From Asterionellopsis glacialis (taxonomy: Eukaryota > Bacillariophyta > Plagiogrammaphyceae > Rhaphoneidales > Asterionellopsidaceae), in assembly GCA_014885115.2 (NCBI GenBank), contig WKLE02002181.1, positions 16,238 through 80,237 of the forward strand: a stretch of 64,000 nucleotides of DNA, read 5' to 3'. Both the position numbers and the translations under genes were made by a program. The notes below the pieces were generated by a model. It worked only from the letters and a program-made list of their open reading frames with translations, had not been told where the DNA came from and did not search any database. How positions within the stretch are numbered: position 1 is the first letter of the stretch; each line of letters begins with the position of its first letter. Positions 1,570 to 58,645 of this stretch are shown piece by piece.

Positions 1570-3420
1570 ATGGGTGGAAAAGCTGCCAAGGAACGTCGTC
1601 GTTTGCAACGTCTGGAGTTGCAATCCAACGATACTAAAAATGAGAAAAGTGTAGAAAAGAAAAATGATGGCGCATCGTCAGATCGAAAGTTCAACAATGA
1701 TAAATTTGATGGTTCCTTTCGAAATAGCAACCATGGGGGACGTGGTGGCAACAACCATGGTGGACGCGGTGGAGGCTTTCCTCAAAGACAAGGAGGTGGT
1801 GGCCGTGGTGGATTCGGTGGACGAGGCGGATTCGCAGGAGGAAGGGGAGGAAGAGGTGGCGGTCGATTTGATGGAGGTAATAGAGGAGGAGGACGAAGTT
1901 TCGGGGGTAGTGGTGGTGGTCGATTTGATGGAGGAGGACGAGGTTTCGGTGGTGGTGGTGGTGGTCGATTTGATAGGGGAGGTAGAGGAGGTGGTCGGTT
2001 TGATGGAGGAGGCGGAAGGGGAGGTGGTCGATTTGACGGAGGAGGTAGAGGAGGCGGAAGAGGAGGAGGTGGTAGATTTTCAGGACCGCCTCCATTCCGA
2101 AGAGAAAAGGAAACTGTCCACAAGGTCAAGAAGGAAAAGAAATTTAAGAAACCCAAACATATGAAACGCAAATTGGAACAAGCCGATGAAGAAACTCGGG
2201 ATAAAATTATGAATGTAATGCAACAATGGGAAGCTTTGAAAACAGAAATCAAACAAAAGAAAGAAGATGGTGGCAATGGTGATAATGTCAAGATGTCAGA
2301 TGGGCCTCAACAAAAGCCGGCAAACAATAAAGCTCCACCTTCTACAAGTTCTTTAAAAAAGGATACAACAAACCCATCAACATCTACTCCTACTGTTGAA
2401 GATTTTCCAAGAAATAATGCTTCTACTAGTTCTGTCCAACCATCCACATTCGAAACAAAAAGTGATGCGAAGCCAACTGATGTGCAGAATGACAAGGTTT
2501 CTCAAAATAATAAAAAAGTAGACGAATCTGAAGATAAACCATCTGCACCAAAACCCAAAACTAAAGAAAGCCACAAAGCCAATGATTCCGATTCTGATAG
2601 TGATGTAGACTTGGAAGAAAGCATGAAACGTCAAAGAGGCAAACGAAGAAGAGGAAGGAAAGCTCGCGAACAAGCTAAAGAAGCTGAGCCAAAGGATACT
2701 GCCGAATCTTCTGAAGTTCCTCAAAGCACTGTCAAACAACAACAAGAGGCACCACCACTCAAAGAAGAAGAAGAAAATGACAAACAAGATGCCATCATGA
2801 AGGAAAAAGAAACCGATGAAGAGGAAACTAAGGAAAGTAAAAAAACACCAAAAAAAGATGACAGCCGTCGATGTATTGGAAGAAAGCCAGTGACTGACTT
2901 TGTTATTGGTCAGAGATATGATGGTAAGGTTGTGTACTTGAAACCCTTTGGAGCCTTCATTGATATCGGGAGCCATTCAGATGCATTCTGTCACGTTTCA
3001 AGACTTCAAGATGAATACGTAGAGAACCCCAGTGATATCCTCAAGGATGGTGACAGTGTCAAAGCACGGGTTGTAGAGATTGATAGAGAGCAAAAGCGTC
3101 TTACTGTCAGTCTTCAATCAGATGCAAGAATCGAAGATGAACTCAAGTCAATTCAAGCTAAAGCAGAAAGAGCTCAGAAGCGCAAAACTCCCAAGAAATC
3201 GAGTCATCAGTCGATGCGAGATGACTCTGCCCCTATAGCAACAAAGAAACAAAAACAAGAGGCTCCTCCCGCTCCTCCAACTCCTCCTGTTGAGAAATTT
3301 GACCCCCTAAAACCTATTGACGAGTCCACAATGACTCCAGCTGAAATTAAAAGGGCAAGGAAATTAGCGCGTAGAGCTGAAAGACGTGCACAACAAGAGC
3401 TGACCGGGGTTTCAGCATAA
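1570..3420 (+). CDS. RGG-rich S1-domain RNA-binding protein
   Basis: The protein has 616 residues encoded in one exon. It begins with a basic stretch (MGGKAAKERRRLQ), then a glycine/arginine-rich RGG region of roughly residues 55-175 built from imperfect repeats of the type GGRFDGGGRGG. A long charged, low-complexity linker follows, with acidic SDSDSD and KEEEEN stretches. One S1 OB-fold lies at about residues 442-515 (DFVIGQRYDGKVVYLKPFGA ... VKARVVEIDREQKRLTVSLQ). The C-terminus is basic (EIKRARKLARRAERRAQQ). S1 domains bind RNA, and RGG boxes add nonspecific RNA binding and are methylation targets. A role in ribosome biogenesis or mRNA translation is therefore likely, but the specific one cannot be read from sequence. 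The start is the first ATG after an in-frame stop, preceded by an A-rich leader. Confidence 0.88.
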   Translation: MGGKAAKERRRLQRLELQSNDTKNEKSVEKKNDGASSDRKFNNDKFDGSFRNSNHGGRGGNNHGGRGGGFPQRQGGGGRGGFGGRGGFAGGRGGRGGGRFDGGNRGGGRSFGGSGGGRFDGGGRGFGGGGGGRFDRGGRGGGRFDGGGGRGGGRFDGGGRGGGRGGGGRFSGPPPFRREKETVHKVKKEKKFKKPKHMKRKLEQADEETRDKIMNVMQQWEALKTEIKQKKEDGGNGDNVKMSDGPQQKPANNKAPPSTSSLKKDTTNPSTSTPTVEDFPRNNASTSSVQPSTFETKSDAKPTDVQNDKVSQNNKKVDESEDKPSAPKPKTKESHKANDSDSDSDVDLEESMKRQRGKRRRGRKAREQAKEAEPKDTAESSEVPQSTVKQQQEAPPLKEEEENDKQDAIMKEKETDEEETKESKKTPKKDDSRRCIGRKPVTDFVIGQRYDGKVVYLKPFGAFIDIGSHSDAFCHVSRLQDEYVENPSDILKDGDSVKARVVEIDREQKRLTVSLQSDARIEDELKSIQAKAERAQKRKTPKKSSHQSMRDDSAPIATKKQKQEAPPAPPTPPVEKFDPLKPIDESTMTPAEIKRARKLARRAERRAQQELTGVSA

Positions 3421-23192: not shown

Positions 23193-24987
23193 ATGCGCTT
23201 GTTATTTGCAGTGCCGCTGATGGCCATGACCTCGCCTACTACGGCATTTGTCACTTTGAAACCTTTTGGTGCTGTAAACAATCTGATTACCCGACAAAGG
23301 ATATCAGAGCTGTGTTATCAGCATGGTAATTCCCCAACAAACACATCTGTTGTTCCTTTACAAAGTGAAGACGTAATGGCCAAATATCCAAAAGATTACC
23401 CCAAGAAAAATGGGTTCAAAGTATGCAAGACTCGAAAACGCCTCACAGAGGAAACCATGTGCCAAACACTCCGTAAGATGCAATATGCTGTGCGTGGTGA
23501 GGTCGTGATTGCAGCCGATCGGATAAACAAGGAAATTAAAGTCGATCCGCACTCTCATCCGGCTTACGATCACATCGTGTATACCAACATCGGGAATCCA
23601 CACAGCGTTGGTCAACATTCGCTTACATGGCCAAGACAGGTCATGGCGCTTTGTAATCTTCCAGATGAACTTGGCATTGATCATCCCGATGCAGAGAAAT
23701 TGTTTCCTAAGGATGCAATTGAGCGCGCTAAGGAAATAAAGCACATAGCAATTGGTGATGTTGGTACCGGGGCATATTCACATAGTCAGGGTTATCAAGC
23801 ATTCCGAGAACACATTGCAAATTTTATAGAAGAGCGAGACGGAGGAATTCCAGCAAAGGCTGATGATATTTTTATGACCAACGGAGCTAGCAGAGCAATA
23901 GACATGGTGTTACAAACATTGTTGGCGGACGAAAACTGTGGAACTATGATTCCAATCCCGCAGTACCCTTTGTACAGTGCAACTATCGCCTTGCGGGGTG
24001 CACATCAAGTGAATTACTATCTAGATGAGAAAAACGGATGGAGTCTCGACATTGATCATCTCGAACAAGTTCTTGCGAATGCACAAGCACGTGCAATAAA
24101 TGTAAATAGCTTTGTCTTAATTAATCCCGGTAATCCAACAGGACAAGTTTTGACGCGAGAAGCTGTCCATGTAAGTACGAATGCTGCCGAATTTTCCTAT
24201 ATTATTTGACACAGAAAGCAACCAATCTCATGTCCTTTCTTCATCACAAACCTTTTCTGTACAGAATGTTGTCAAATTTTGTGCCAAGCACAAGCTCGTT
24301 CTCTTATCGGATGAAGTTTATCAAGATAATGTATATGATGAAAATGCAGAGTTTGTGAGTTGCAAACAAGCTGCTTATGAAACGGGACTTTTACAGAAAG
24401 ATGAAATTGAACTCATTTCTTTCCATTCCACAAGCAAGGGTCTGTATGGTGAATGTGGACATCGTGGTGGATATATGGAAATTGTAGGAATGGACAAGAG
24501 CGTGGAAGACCACATCTACAAGTTGGCTTCATCTGTCCTTTGCCCAAACCTTGATGGTCAAATAATGATGGATCTCATGGTCAGAGGTCCAAAACCGAGC
24601 GATGAGTCTTACGAAACACACGAGCAACAAAAGAAAGAAGTTTTTGAATCATTAAAAAGACGTGCTAAACTTGTTGTTGATGGACTAAACTCAATTCCCG
24701 GTTTCTCTTGCCAGCCGGCTCAAGGAGCCATGTACTGCTTTCCATCGGTCGAGCTACCACGTGGTGCTATCTTAGAAGCAAGGAAGAGAGGCTCCGATCC
24801 AGACACAATGTATGCTCTCTCATTACTCGAAGAAACCGGCATCTGTGTAGTTCCAGCATCTGGCTTTGGTCAAGAACAGGGAAGGCACGGCTTTCGAACG
24901 ACATTCTTGCCTCCAGAAAATGAAATGGAACGCGCTGTAGAATTGTTTAAGAAGCACCACGAAATGTTTTGTCGGAAGTATGGATGA
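23193..24987 (+). CDS. Alanine aminotransferase with N-terminal targeting extension
   Basis: Exons 23193-24170 and 24265-24987 encode 566 residues; the intron has GTAAGT and TGTACAG borders. The first ATG (MRLLFAVPLMAMTSPTTAF) gives a signal-like hydrophobic stretch ending TTAF-VT, so plastid or another secretory-route location is likely. Class I PLP-aminotransferase features are NIGNPHSVGQ, TNGASRAIDMVLQTLL, LINPGNPTGQVL, LLSDEVYQDNVY and the Schiff-base lysine in SFHSTSKGLYGECGHRGGY (Lys about 384). QGAMYCFPSVELP and GFRTTFLP close the fold. These are alanine aminotransferase-specific segments. The enzyme interconverts alanine plus 2-oxoglutarate and pyruvate plus glutamate. It converges on MMS19 with 105 bp between stops. 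Confidence 0.93.
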
Positions 24988-33913: not shown

Positions 33914-36783
33914 TCAAGGTTTCCAATCCAACAAACGTTGGACCAATTCGGAACTACTACTGCATGTGACGTCATATCTTGTGGCGTCCAAAAAGTGGTG
34001 CTCCTCGACGACTCCAGATTCGCCCTGCTCAGAAAGACATCGTATTGCTGCTGCACGACAAAGAGCGGCAAGATCCGCACCACTGAATCCAACGCATTTC
34101 GATGCAACTATCTTGCACAAACTTTGGACACTGTCATTGTCAGAGTAACGCAATCGCATCTTGGAGATGTGAACATTCAAAATATCAACACGCTCGGGAT
34201 CCGTTGGTAATCCAACATGGACCACTTGATCGAATCTTCCAGGACGGAGAAAGGCGGCGTCTACCATCCAGGGGGTGTTTGTGGCGCCAAGGACGACAAC
34301 ACGCGTATTTCTGTGCTGTTCCCACTCGTCACTATTGCCACCGCTATTAACATTTTCCTCTGTTGTAGTTGCCGTTTTGTCGGCATCTCTCCAATGTGCA
34401 ACATCATCCAGACATTGCAATAAGGTACTTGTAAGCCGTCCACTTCCGCTCCCAGTGCGTTCTGTAAACAAGGCTTGAAATTCATCAATAAATACTACTG
34501 ATGGAGCATTGGTACGAGCAGTTTCAAAAGCATTCACAAGCAGCTTTTCGCTATTACCTACTTGCGCCTGTACAATATCACTGGCACGAAGAGAAATGAA
34601 AGCGCCGCCAACATCACCTACTCCCTGCGAAACTTTGCCTTGAGCAAGTAACTTAGCGATTGCTTTAGCGAGAAGAGTTTTTCCCGTTCCTGGTGGACCA
34701 TAGAGGAGAACACCTGTGGGTGGCGAGAATCCAAGTTTTGCCATAGTGCGGCGTTTAGATGGGTCAAGGGCGAGGGAATCCTCAAGGGCCTGTTTAGCAC
34801 GCAAGTTACCACCAACAGTGGCAAACAGTTCCTTATTTTGCTGCTTTCTGTTACTATCTGAACTCTGTGAAGATGACATGAAAGAAACGTTTGCAGACGA
34901 TGCCATGGACGAAGACCCCCGTTGAAGTATTGACATGGCAGTCTCCAACTGTTCAACACTGGCAACGACCACGTCATTGGTGGACTGACTCTTGTTGGTA
35001 GAAGCCAAAATCTCCGTAAGCCGCTGAGCCACTCTTTTAAATGTATTCCCCCGTGCTGAAACTGCTGAAGCGGCAAGGATTGGTAGGCGTGCTTTGGCAC
35101 TATTGTCCAAGTCAACTTTTGCTTCGTGAAACGCTCTTTGGAATGATAAGAATCGTGTTTTTGCCGATGGGTCGGGAAGTCTGTAGTGACCCCCTCCTAA
35201 TGCACCAAGAACGGTGGTATCTGAGTTCCTTGTCGTGCTTGTATCATTAGCACCTCTCGTAGACCGCCCACCGTCATCTGGACATGTGACAATTCCAACA
35301 AGACAAACTCGAACCGACATGACATGTCCATTTGTGCCTCCTAAATTATAAAGCGGATTCTTATTCGACGGAAAGGGGAATTCTTTCCTTTTCGTTAATG
35401 TGGTAGAAACTTTATTTAGGTACGAAGCTATAGCGTTCAAAATATAATCAGAAATAAGAATAAGAAAAGCATAAAATAAAAAGTCAGGTACCATATTATT
35501 CCGTCGAGCGCAAGTGCAATGTGTACATGAATAATGTCGTTCGTACCAATTCCATTAAGCACAGGAACAGCAGCATCCCCTGCACTGCTCTTGCCAGAAA
35601 GAGCTGGGGGCAGCATTGCGTCCAACTGGTCAAGAATTATGCACACAGACGCACAACCTTCACGAACCGCGGCGCTCATTACAATGCTATGAAGCATTGA
35701 TTCTAAGGCAGCATCAGCATGAATGCCATATTTGGCAAACAAGGGGGCAGCCTGTATAACATGGATTGCGCCACAGTGCAGTAAACGTCGCGCAATAGTC
35801 TGTACGAGCATGCTTTTTCCTGCTCCGTGAACTGGACTATGTACCACGAGGGAACCACCTTCCTCCCATAAAAGAGACGGTATTTTACCCAATTCACCGT
35901 AGCAATTCGTCGTTGTATGGAGTGCTTGTGAATCTACTTCATGATTTTTGTATTTATCTAGAGCACGATGTAGTTGTTGACGCTGAAGTTTGCGATTATT
36001 ATACGTTGTCAAGGCATTTGCTGTAGTTCCGATTAAAATTGGCTGCGACAGCAGCAAAGCCATCCGGAGTTTTAGCGAATTCACTGTCTCTTGGTCATGA
36101 TTGTGAAGAATTTCTAGTTCAGCAGCATTGTTCCAATCTTGTGCCATGTTTACTTCTCCCGATAGAAGATCCGTCAATGAATAGTGAGCGTCCGATGCAA
36201 GTCTCGCAGTCGGGTAGTCTGCGTTTGAACCCTCCACGCGAGTTGCTTTTTCAGTGGGTAAAATACGTATAAGTGTTCGCTGGTCGACCGCTACGTTCTC
36301 TATGGTAGAATTTTCGACATAGATCGACTTTGAAAAACCTACAAATGCCCTCAACCAACATGGATAGTCCTCTAGTTCTGTCGGGTTTTCACTAGGTAGA
36401 TACACGATTGGAACTTCCTCATGCTGCCGTTCGTAGGAACCGTCAGCTCTCCTTGTTGACGTAAATATAAGTGTTGCATCTCTGTCAGCGTTATATTGTA
36501 TACTCGTTTTCTTTTGTTTGGTTTGGTAAACATTACCCTTACGTACATTTATTCCATCTATTTTGTTGCTTTTATTTGTTATATTAGAGTCATCATCTCT
36601 TGCGCTCAACGTGAGACCAATCGAGTGGTTTAAGGTGAGTTGTTTCAAGTGTATGTGAACCATTGGTGCTGATAGCGACGGTGTACTTTCATGATACCTT
36701 GGAGTTTTCAACGAAAGCGGAATTACTTCCAAAAGTATTATTGGAATGGATGAACTCATACATATGCTATTACTGCCAAACAT
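33914..36783 (-). CDS. Double-AAA+ ATPase, PEX1/PEX6/AFG2-like
   Basis: Exons 36783-35547 and 35427-33914 join in frame as VPVLNGI-ASYLNKV and give 916 residues. The N-terminal third is divergent. The first AAA domain has a degraded P-loop (VHSPVHGAGKSMLVQTIARR) and a Walker B lacking the Glu (CIILDQLDAML, DQ for DE), so it probably does not hydrolyse ATP. The second is intact: ATVGGNLRAKQAL, GVLLYGPPGTGKTLLAKAIA, VVFIDEFQALF, sensor GATNTPWMVD and arginine finger AAFLRPGRFDQ, then FSGADLAALCRAAAIRCL. One dead and one live ring plus 'DEF' at Walker B fit peroxisomal PEX1, but PEX6 or AFG2/SPATA5 types are not excluded. The pore-loop site reads VQAQVGNSEK. Confidence 0.82.
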
Positions 36784-56661: not shown

Positions 56662-57545
56662 TGTTGACTATGGGAAAAGCGTGAACAAATCACTTTGCTT
56701 CGTTTGTGTTTCAACGAGCTATGTGTCACCAAGAGAAAGGTTTGGGATTTTATTTCATAGAGCAATGATTCCAGAGAGGGAATCTCTTCGCGAAAAATAG
56801 CAGCTACGTGCAGGCGCTACAGAAAACGATGTTCTTCCGCTCTCTCTGCCCTGTCTCTCTCCAGCAACACACGGAGCACCGGGGTAATATTATTTGGTTG
56901 ACGGGCAGATGAACAAGATGGACTTTCCTTTACACATGGAAAGGTTTAACGGCTTTCGCTCCGCCCAAGCAATAAACTCGTTGCTTCCGTCCTTATGTCT
57001 TAATTTATCGAAGAAATTAGCTCGTACAAAGTTTCAAAGTTACTCTCAAGAGTTTTTAACTTCCACCGAAGCTGATTCGGATATACCTTTCAAGAGGTCC
57101 TCACTTTCTGCTTTGCAAACTGCCCTTCCTGACAAAATTATGCTTGTTGCGTTTTCGGTACTCCACCGAGATTCTTCTTCAACTATATTCTTGATTTCGC
57201 TTCTGGCATCAATAAGGACAGTAGGAGGATGAACTCTCCCAACCCAAAGATACTGATTTATGCGAACTATTTGCAGATTATGAAGTTGTCACCATGGTGG
57301 AATTGACTCTGTCAGGTAATCATGATCAGTTGGAATGGGGAAAAAACAAAATAAATTGGGATGGTAGTGATTCTAAAAGAGGCTCCACCGTGACAGACTG
57401 CAGTATCAAAATAAGCGCAATGGATATCAGAACTTTTTATATGGAAGGCAAAAATACGGTAGCACATGGCACGGAATGAGTGTATTTGGACACTGTAGAT
57501 CTGATGCTTCAATTCTAAATACAGCTTATGCACGCTGAAGTCTAC

Positions 57546-57569
57546 TTATTTATTTATTTATTTATTTAT
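57546..57569. repeat. TTTA tetranucleotide microsatellite
   Basis: Six consecutive TTAT units on the plus strand, downstream of the SelU-like gene. Confidence 0.85.
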
Positions 57570-57662
57570 GGAATTTATCTACATTGCTTTAAAAATTGCA
57601 CAGTCATCACGCAACACATCTACAAGGTTTCTGCAGAAAGTTCTCGATTTTAATGTTCTCAC

Positions 57663-57729
57663 TTGAATTTCAGTTCCTGGGAATTAACAATGCTCATCAA
57701 AGGTATTTCCCCGGATCGTCATTAATCAA
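57663..57729 (-). promoter_or_regulatory. Candidate SECIS element in SelU-like 3' UTR
   Basis: On the minus strand, starting about 68 nt after the stop codon, the RNA can fold with helix I TTGA/TCAA (57729-57726 with 57666-57663). An ATGA quartet (57722-57719) would face TGAA (57672-57669). Helix II pairs CGATCCGGGG with CCCAGGAAC (two mismatches). AAA follows ten bases after ATGA, as SECIS elements have. The apical part is longer than usual and the helix imperfect, so this is a hand-found candidate. Confidence 0.4.
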
Positions 57730-57796
57730 AATAAAGACCATTGAAAAAGACAACCGTTATACAAAACCTCGCGATAGGTACGACAGAGACATCTAT

Positions 57797-58645
57797 TTAT
57801 TGGCTGAAAAACTTCGCCCATAAAGGTGTACTGTACTGATTTGCTTCTTCTGCTGCTGCGGTCTTGGCAACTTCCAGTACGGTGTCCAAGTTGGGATGAT
57901 CTCCAGGTACCTTGTCGCTCCATTGGTAAACCACTGTGTCTCCGCTCACGACGAATGTACCCCCGAGCCGTAAGACGCCTTCTGGGATACCATCAAGTTC
58001 TTTACCCTTTTCAATTGGAGAAAGCGACATGACATTGGTCATGTAGTTCCACCAACCCTTCAGTCCAAGATCAGGTGCTTCTAACTTGACATTTTTAACT
58101 TCCTCCTTCTCGGCCTCCGACATGTTGACAATATCGAATATACCAAATCCTGCTTGGCTGTAAGCGTCAAAACTGAAATCATCACCAAACATCTTCTCAC
58201 GTGGAATCTTTGGGTTCAATTCTAGAAATTTTCCTAGCTTTTCTTTGTCACCAATGGAAATGAAAAGCGGTCCTGCAATTCCAGCATCCTCCAATTGTGG
58301 CTGAAGCTCACACCAAGAATTGGCGTAGCTCCAGCAGTATGGTCATCCAAGGTGTCGAAGGAAGACTACGACGGATGTGCCATCTCCCATTTGCTCGTCT
58401 AGACGTACAAAATCACCTTCAGCATTAATTAAGACAGAAGAACGTAACTTATTGGCAGATCCCTTCTCAGACATGAGATTTGGCACTTCCACATCGGTTG
58501 GAATATCGCACACGGTGCCTTCGGTTGTTTCTGGCTGTTGCACACTCACTGAAAGTCTTGATACACCAAACTGGTGAGTTTTTGTAGGTGCAAATGCACT
58601 GCTACCGCTAAGAGCAGCGAGCGCAAGGACAGCACTTAGTCTCAT
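57797..58645 (-). CDS. Plastid-targeted selenoprotein U/PRXL2-like peroxiredoxin (TGA read as Sec)
   Basis: 282 residues if the in-frame TGA at 58345-58343 is read as selenocysteine. The leader MRLSAVLALAALSGSSAFAP is a signal peptide plus the classic plastid motif. Residues about 75-105 form the first thioredoxin-fold strand and redox loop: GDGTSVVVFLRHLG, then TGA, then PYCWSYANSWCELQPQLEDA. In PRXL2/AhpC-TSA-2 proteins a Cys stands where TGA occurs (LRxxG-C-PxC), so the TGA sits at residue 101 in a U-P-Y-C motif. The frame is uninterrupted on both sides: downstream are GPLFISIGDKEKLGKFLELN and GLKGWWNYMTNVM, then GVLRLGGTFVVSGDTVVYQW and a C-terminus ending WAKFFSQ before TAA. The likely role is thiol or selenol peroxidase/reductase in the plastid. 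Annotation tools would split it into two ORFs. Confidence 0.88.
58343..58345 (-). other. Selenocysteine codon (in-frame TGA)
   Basis: The only stop in an otherwise open 283-codon frame is TGA, the one stop used for Sec. It falls exactly at the family's redox cysteine. Confidence 0.85.

Follow-up and report, generated by a model that had tools for sequence, protein, structure and literature searches.

A predicted plastid-directed selenoprotein of the PRXL2 type in the diatom Asterionellopsis glacialis

Is a TGA codon in the middle of a conserved diatom reading frame a stop, or is it read as selenocysteine (Sec)? The question is raised by a gene of Asterionellopsis glacialis that lies in a window of 64,000 nucleotides, the whole stretch of DNA analysed here (contig WKLE02002181.1 of assembly GCA_014885115.2, positions 16,238 to 80,237, forward strand). 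On the minus strand of the window two abutting open frames, 58343-58645 (100 residues) and a continuation to the TAA at 57797-57799, are separated by one TGA. Very probably the gene encodes a PRXL2 (SelU-like) selenoprotein directed to the plastid, with TGA codon 101 read as Sec with the help of a Sec insertion sequence (SECIS) in the 3' untranslated region (UTR); all of these assignments are predictions.

Reading frame and leader

From 58645 to 57797 the minus strand holds one frame of 282 codons plus TAA, and the TGA is its sole interruption. The joined protein has 282 residues, with U (Sec) at 101 in the context FLRHLG-U-PYCWSYA and Cys at 104; U101 and Cys104 make up a UxxC site, and Cys104 is unchanged in all 24 aligned family rows. 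A first-pass annotation of this DNA had described the two frames parted by a single TGA and had proposed that the TGA replaces a Cys of the family. Both points are borne out, the first by the joined frame and the second by full-length homologues, which have Cys or Trp (W) there. To judge from the alignment, the view that Sec opens a CxxC-type site is supported as well. The feature end given by that annotation, 57663, was an arbitrary choice, and the reading frame runs only to 57797.

The leader reads MRLSAVLALAALSGSSA followed by FAPTK, so that the stretch around the predicted cleavage site is SGSSAFAPTK. Papers are cited here by PubMed Central number and from excerpts of their text. An ASAFAP cleavage motif is characteristic of plastid proteins of diatoms and other red-lineage algae (PMC4329603). 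The leader fits a motif of this type; its signal peptide and cleavage site are predicted by the motif and by a simple rule, a hydrophobic stretch followed by xF. This rule holds for 24 of 31 family leaders and, among 93 internal stretches of these proteins, for one. The 31 leaders are those of the window, of 23 rows from the search with the joined protein and of seven from the search with its N-terminal piece; another 12 rows that extend upstream of the site (P0009, P0010, P0013, P0025, P0028, P0077, P0082-P0084, P0087, P0089 and P0091) lie outside the count. In the structure model the predicted transit-peptide region has a low predicted local distance difference test score (pLDDT). The plastid-type SSAFAP leader of the first-pass annotation thus stands, as a prediction.

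A selenoprotein that is secreted, resident in the endoplasmic reticulum or placed between the plastid membranes, and not in the stroma, would be expected to have a signal peptide in every case, and 7 of the 31 leaders fail the simple rule. The F at the predicted +1 position followed by AP is, however, the published hallmark of the ASAFAP type (PMC4329603), and the rule sets the family leaders well apart from internal stretches. Such a location is unlikely, and import into the plastid is the likely fate of the protein.

The TGA in homologues and in the genome

Protein searches were limited to candidates of 0.55-1.75 times the query length, so that full-length Cys forms fell outside the search with the 100-residue upstream piece, and pieces under about 155 residues outside the search with the joined protein. 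With the upstream piece, seven proteins were found (40-82% identical), and all seven end at FLRHLG, the residue before the TGA. This is telling because cuts made by contig ends would fall anywhere. None of the homologues seen stops at another residue in this stretch.

The joined protein gave 91 matches, of which 90 were counted in the alignment after the window's own piece (P0001) was dropped. In the column of the site, 49 rows start after it, 18 have C, 13 W, 9 a gap and 1 S. When the gap rows were sorted by eye, six of them also proved to start at or after the site, and about 55 of the 90 rows therefore begin after it. Three rows (P0023 from Attheya, P0056 from Fistulifera, and P0077), again by eye, are gene models that skip the site. 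True Cys rows number 15 of 90 by eye, P0028, P0089 and P0091 having been removed from the C rows since their context is not that of the CxxC site. Most truncated rows start at +16, the first start codon past the site; they place a break upstream, and its exact position is shown by the N-terminal matches. All 13 W rows are from jgi, lgn or ena sources, a pattern suggestive of TGA being translated under code 4; replacement of Sec by Trp is also named as possible (PMC7539508, section 10). Cylindrotheca, Attheya and Fistulifera are the named relatives among these matches; together with the leader type, they point to a diatom. The first-pass annotation had looked to residue 101 of the homologues for Cys or Sec; Cys or W is found there, and the N-terminal pieces stop directly before it. 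In public gene calls, members of this group seem to end early or to have the site spliced out.

A tree of 86 rows, the window included, has seven changes of the Cys label, at least four of them on well-supported branches, and the Cys form of Cylindrotheca fusiformis (P0004) nests among truncated rows. Rows P0001, P0079, P0085, P0089, P0090 and P0091 were left out of the tree, and the long branches of P0087, P0083, P0086, P0029 and others are unsure. Repeated label changes together with a nested Cys form are the behaviour of a Sec/Cys pair, unlike that of decaying genes. The gene is not a lone oddity, the same arrangement being found in many homologues; its plastid-type U-P-Y-C form holds.

The genome can be asked whether it has the means to read UGA as Sec. 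In the assembly (40.3 Mb in 1503 contigs) a Sec transfer RNA (tRNA) with anticodon TCA is present, matched by a Sec tRNA model and called by ARAGORN, and so is a gene for SepSecS. Other candidates were rejected as Sec tRNAs: ARAGORN gives L004 as tRNA-Ser, and L005 and L006 as tRNA-Leu. The best SelB-like match reaches 150.9 bits against a cut-off of 242.25 and has stops inside it, perhaps introns. On contig C1060 the Sec tRNA gene (24659-24744) and the best candidate for the SelB-like elongation factor (35125-36510) are about 10 kb apart. Plain selenoprotein genes are also found. For example, TGA stands where Sec is expected in two of three GPx matches (SK-U-GKT and CK-U-GKT), in the SelT gene (CVS-U-G), in the SelM gene (CSG-U-A) and in one of ten MsrA matches (ALG-U-FW).

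If the TGA were a true stop, the gene would be a young pseudogene or would make only a truncated protein of 100 residues. Without Sec insertion the frame does end at 58343, and copies of the gene do die in this genome: a truncated duplicate at C1073 (L002:1491-2400), 86% identical over 947 bases to window 57059-58002, keeps the last 63 codons and the 3' flank. Against this stand the stop at the same codon in all seven N-terminal matches, conservation in the nearest relatives that is about equal after the TGA (83%, P0002) and before it (82%, P0092), and the Sec-decoding and selenoprotein genes just described. A true stop is very unlikely, and insertion of Sec at codon 101 is likely. An assembly or sequencing error is less probable still. 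One base would be enough to turn a real TGC or TGT into the codon seen, and 15 of the 90 homologues do have Cys; but the break recurs at this place in independent relatives, of which the nearest are 82-83% identical, and two further family members of this genome, L007 and L008, have TGA at the same site. An intron that takes out the TGA is the least credible explanation. Public models of relatives (P0023 and P0056) do skip the stretch, but FLRHLG and PYCWSYA are conserved and in full-length homologues a single residue, Cys or W, links them, which leaves nothing to splice out; models that skip the stretch are missing the active site and appear to be mis-annotated.

The SECIS candidate and the points against Sec

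The first-pass annotation had also noted a hairpin in the 3' UTR as a candidate SECIS. Its elements are there: ATGA, AAA ten bases after it, and TGAA. One scanner gives it a score of 19, a value that 5 of the 158 window slices of 800 bases reach, the candidate's own slice among them. An earlier, relaxed scanner found it at a score of 17, with three other places equally high in 128 kb, and the first SECIS scanner missed it. Taken alone, the candidate is only moderately above chance. The scanner that scores it at 19 reaches 15 or more in three of seven control genes (GPx1, GPx2, SelT, MsrA, SelM, SelU and PRXL2b); for GPx2 none of the scanners gave a trusted SECIS candidate.

The candidates of SelT (two tandem copies), SelM and L008 share the make of that in the window, ATGACG...CTGA. 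This signature starts no more than 130 bases from the stop codon in five of eight selenoprotein genes (the window gene, GPx1, SelT, SelM and L008), of which only the GPx1 match is independent, the signature having been drawn from the other four. In its strict form it is found at three other places in 128 kb; with ATGATG also allowed, seven of the eight genes match versus 14 other places. On the two strands of the other loci (182,582 bases) there are 11 matches to the strict form, six of them known candidates (one counted twice) and five elsewhere. The GPx1 case, read from its sequence, can be written as a hairpin of ten pairs with one G-U pair. Other selenoprotein genes here have the signature too, which gives weight to the candidate in the window; it may function as a SECIS. 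In the decayed duplicate the quartet motifs are mutated (ATGA to ATGT, CTGA to CTAA), a change to be expected once the element has no coding copy to serve. An alignment of the genome's own SECIS candidates was too gappy for a covariance model.

Several findings weigh against Sec at codon 101 or against the hairpin. The Sec tRNA model also matches in all 14 control genomes, in five of them above the cut-off; the ARAGORN call of tRNA-Sec is stronger evidence than the model match. Breaks in the homologues are known as stops from protein sequences and are not known to be TGA, some W rows could be genuine TGG, and P0079 has S at the site and no Cys104. The interior fold of the hairpin is weak (z = -1.32; 20 of 200 shuffled sequences fold as well or better), and the 101 bases around it give a z of -0.01; SelT (z -4.07) and SelM (z -4.51) fold far more strongly. 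A fold-based scanner, which picks three of eight genes, passes over the hairpin, as it also does SelM, GPx1, GPx2 and SelU. No match to the Rfam SECIS_1 model (RF00031) was found in the window or among the genome candidates scored, a negative that is uninformative here since the model also misses the genome's plain selenoproteins; the Rfam listing holds three far sub-threshold matches (6A, SNORD34 and sR33), taken as chance. In the duplicate only the quartet is lost and the stem is kept, and that stem folds more stably (-14.0 versus -11.2 kcal/mol). Of the SECIS proposal, then, the sequence elements and their shared signature stand, and the fold is its weak side.

In the SelT gene (L016) two SECIS-like hairpins, similar to each other, lie in tandem in the 3' flank, 235 bases apart (2089-2137 and 2324-2372, plus strand), and one in-frame TGA lies within the matched part. 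Loop letters recur as AAATACC (window, SelM), AAATATC (GPx1) and TAATACC (L008), a lead that was noticed post hoc.

Table 1. Features of the selenoprotein gene, in window coordinates
Feature	Position	Strand	Basis
Selenoprotein coding frame, intron-free reading	57797..58645	-	homologues align end to end
In-frame TGA, codon 101, probably Sec	58343..58345	-	N-terminal matches end at residue 100; Cys or W in others
Cys104, second residue of U-P-Y-C	58334..58336	-	alignment; pairs with Cys47 of human PRXL2B
Predicted signal peptide, residues 1-17, SSA end before FAP	58595..58645	-	sequence and leader rule
Predicted transit-peptide region, residues 18-44 (end approximate), FAP start	58514..58594	-	ASAFAP-type motif; low pLDDT
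PF13911 (AhpC/TSA_2, PRXL2-type) match, residues 114-245	57911..58306	-	27.0 bits, cut-off 27
SECIS candidate: ATGA, helix, AAA, large loop, helix, TGAA	57669..57722	-	74 bases from stop codon

Family, function and known systems

The PF13911 match of the joined protein is borderline, its score being exactly the cut-off. The downstream piece alone scores 24.3 bits and the upstream piece matches nothing; among 24 family rows, 19 match PF13911 at an expect value (E) of 0.01. The predicted model is peroxiredoxin-like, with PRXL2B and Bcp4 nearest, and has helix 102-113 after strand 90-95, which places the U/CxxC at the start of the helix. Identity with canonical SelU was rejected: that protein is encoded by a separate gene, L007, with RRPG-U-ALC at its site, and is 18% identical to the window protein (E 0.035). 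The RRPG motif is presumably the mark of canonical SelU. Nearer to the window protein is the product of L008, a gene with a plastid leader (23%, E 1e-9). By these comparisons the window gene is a divergent PRXL2-type subfamily and not SelU proper. The earlier description as SelU/PRXL2-like holds, from the PRXL2-type fold and PF13911, with the correction that SelU proper is a separate gene, L007.

The other family genes have features of their own. Canonical SelU (L007:1438-2169, minus strand) reads VVRRPG-TGA-ALCREL, and at this locus the scanners gave no strong SECIS; the only match is a loose ATGATG...CTGA. L008:1414-2292 (minus strand) is a second PF13911 gene: its TGA at 1909-1911 lies in LLRSFG-U-PLCQEV, its leader is of plastid type (VDAFLTP), and a candidate SECIS is found at 1261-1301. 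In the sister family to which it belongs, the site falls in a gap of the gene model in 10 of 11 species-named matches. L009:1150-2280 (plus strand) encodes a PF13911 protein whose leader (NAFLAP) is of plastid type and which, by eye, has no CxxC or UxxC at the usual place.

A mechanism can be proposed. TGA codon 101 would be read as Sec, aided by the predicted SECIS hairpin in the 3' UTR, and the leader would direct import of the protein into the plastid. There U101, which sits at the N-terminal end of a helix in the peroxiredoxin-like fold, might attack a peroxide through its selenolate; by analogy with PRXL2B, the prostamide/prostaglandin F synthase (PGFS), the peroxide could be a lipid hydroperoxide or endoperoxide. 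Cys104 would resolve the product as a selenenylsulfide, to be reduced again by plastid thioredoxin or glutathione (the reductant is a guess).

Many diatoms need selenium. A plastid selenol peroxidase-like protein that is common in environmental sequences would, if real, be a testable link between selenium and photosynthetic redox defence. A broader proposal, which we consider evenly balanced, is that diatom plastids hold a selenium-based branch of PRXL2 with two subfamilies (U-P-Y-C and the U-P-L-C of the L008 type), of long standing among diatoms, with repeated switches between Sec and Cys, and missing from public catalogues because models stop at or splice around the UGA. If it is true, selenium supply would directly limit the peroxide defence of the plastid. 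Public models of the family lose the active site, and repeated exchange of Sec and Cys would provide a natural experiment on the benefit of Sec in the plastid.

Within the open-access literature, with subscription papers and the supplements of PMC7539508 outside its scope, no account of a plastid-directed Sec protein of the PRXL2 type was found, and none is mentioned in the excerpts of PMC5139114 and PMC3237563. Members may already be listed under SELENOU in the database of PMC7539508. SelU-type selenoproteins are known from diatoms, and from its sequence it is the plastid-directed form that appears new.

Among known systems, human PRXL2B (PDB 9us9, 9usa) is the only PDB match of the family profile (E 0.0018 for the whole sequence, with no single stretch significant) and stands at the top of the Foldseek list; in the sequence alignment its Cys44 and Cys47 are the partners of U101 and C104. 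It differs in having Cys in place of Sec and no plastid leader, and is about 25% identical over the aligned part. A SelL-related redox protein (NF040769) matches residues 75-142 around the redox site (E 5.1e-14); membership of SelL was dropped at 52.3 bits against a cut-off of 120. The SelL site is UxxU. SelU, or SELENOU, shares with the window protein the PF13911 domain, Sec at the first position of a UxxC site and occurrence in diatoms; it is among the most widespread algal selenoproteins (PMC7539508), and Thalassiosira pseudonana has two SelU genes (PMC2375036). The window protein differs from it in U-P-Y-C-W, in its ASAFAP-type leader and in its bare Pfam cut-off score. AhpC_b of Thalassiosira oceanica is likewise a diatom selenoprotein of the AhpC/TSA type with UxxC, and differs, in a comparison by description, in being said to have only prokaryotic Cys homologues (PMC7539508). 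Although it belongs to another family and to a green alga, the chloroplast-targeted GPx of Chlamydomonas, with Sec in two of three, is a precedent for a selenoprotein in the plastid (PMC3095285).
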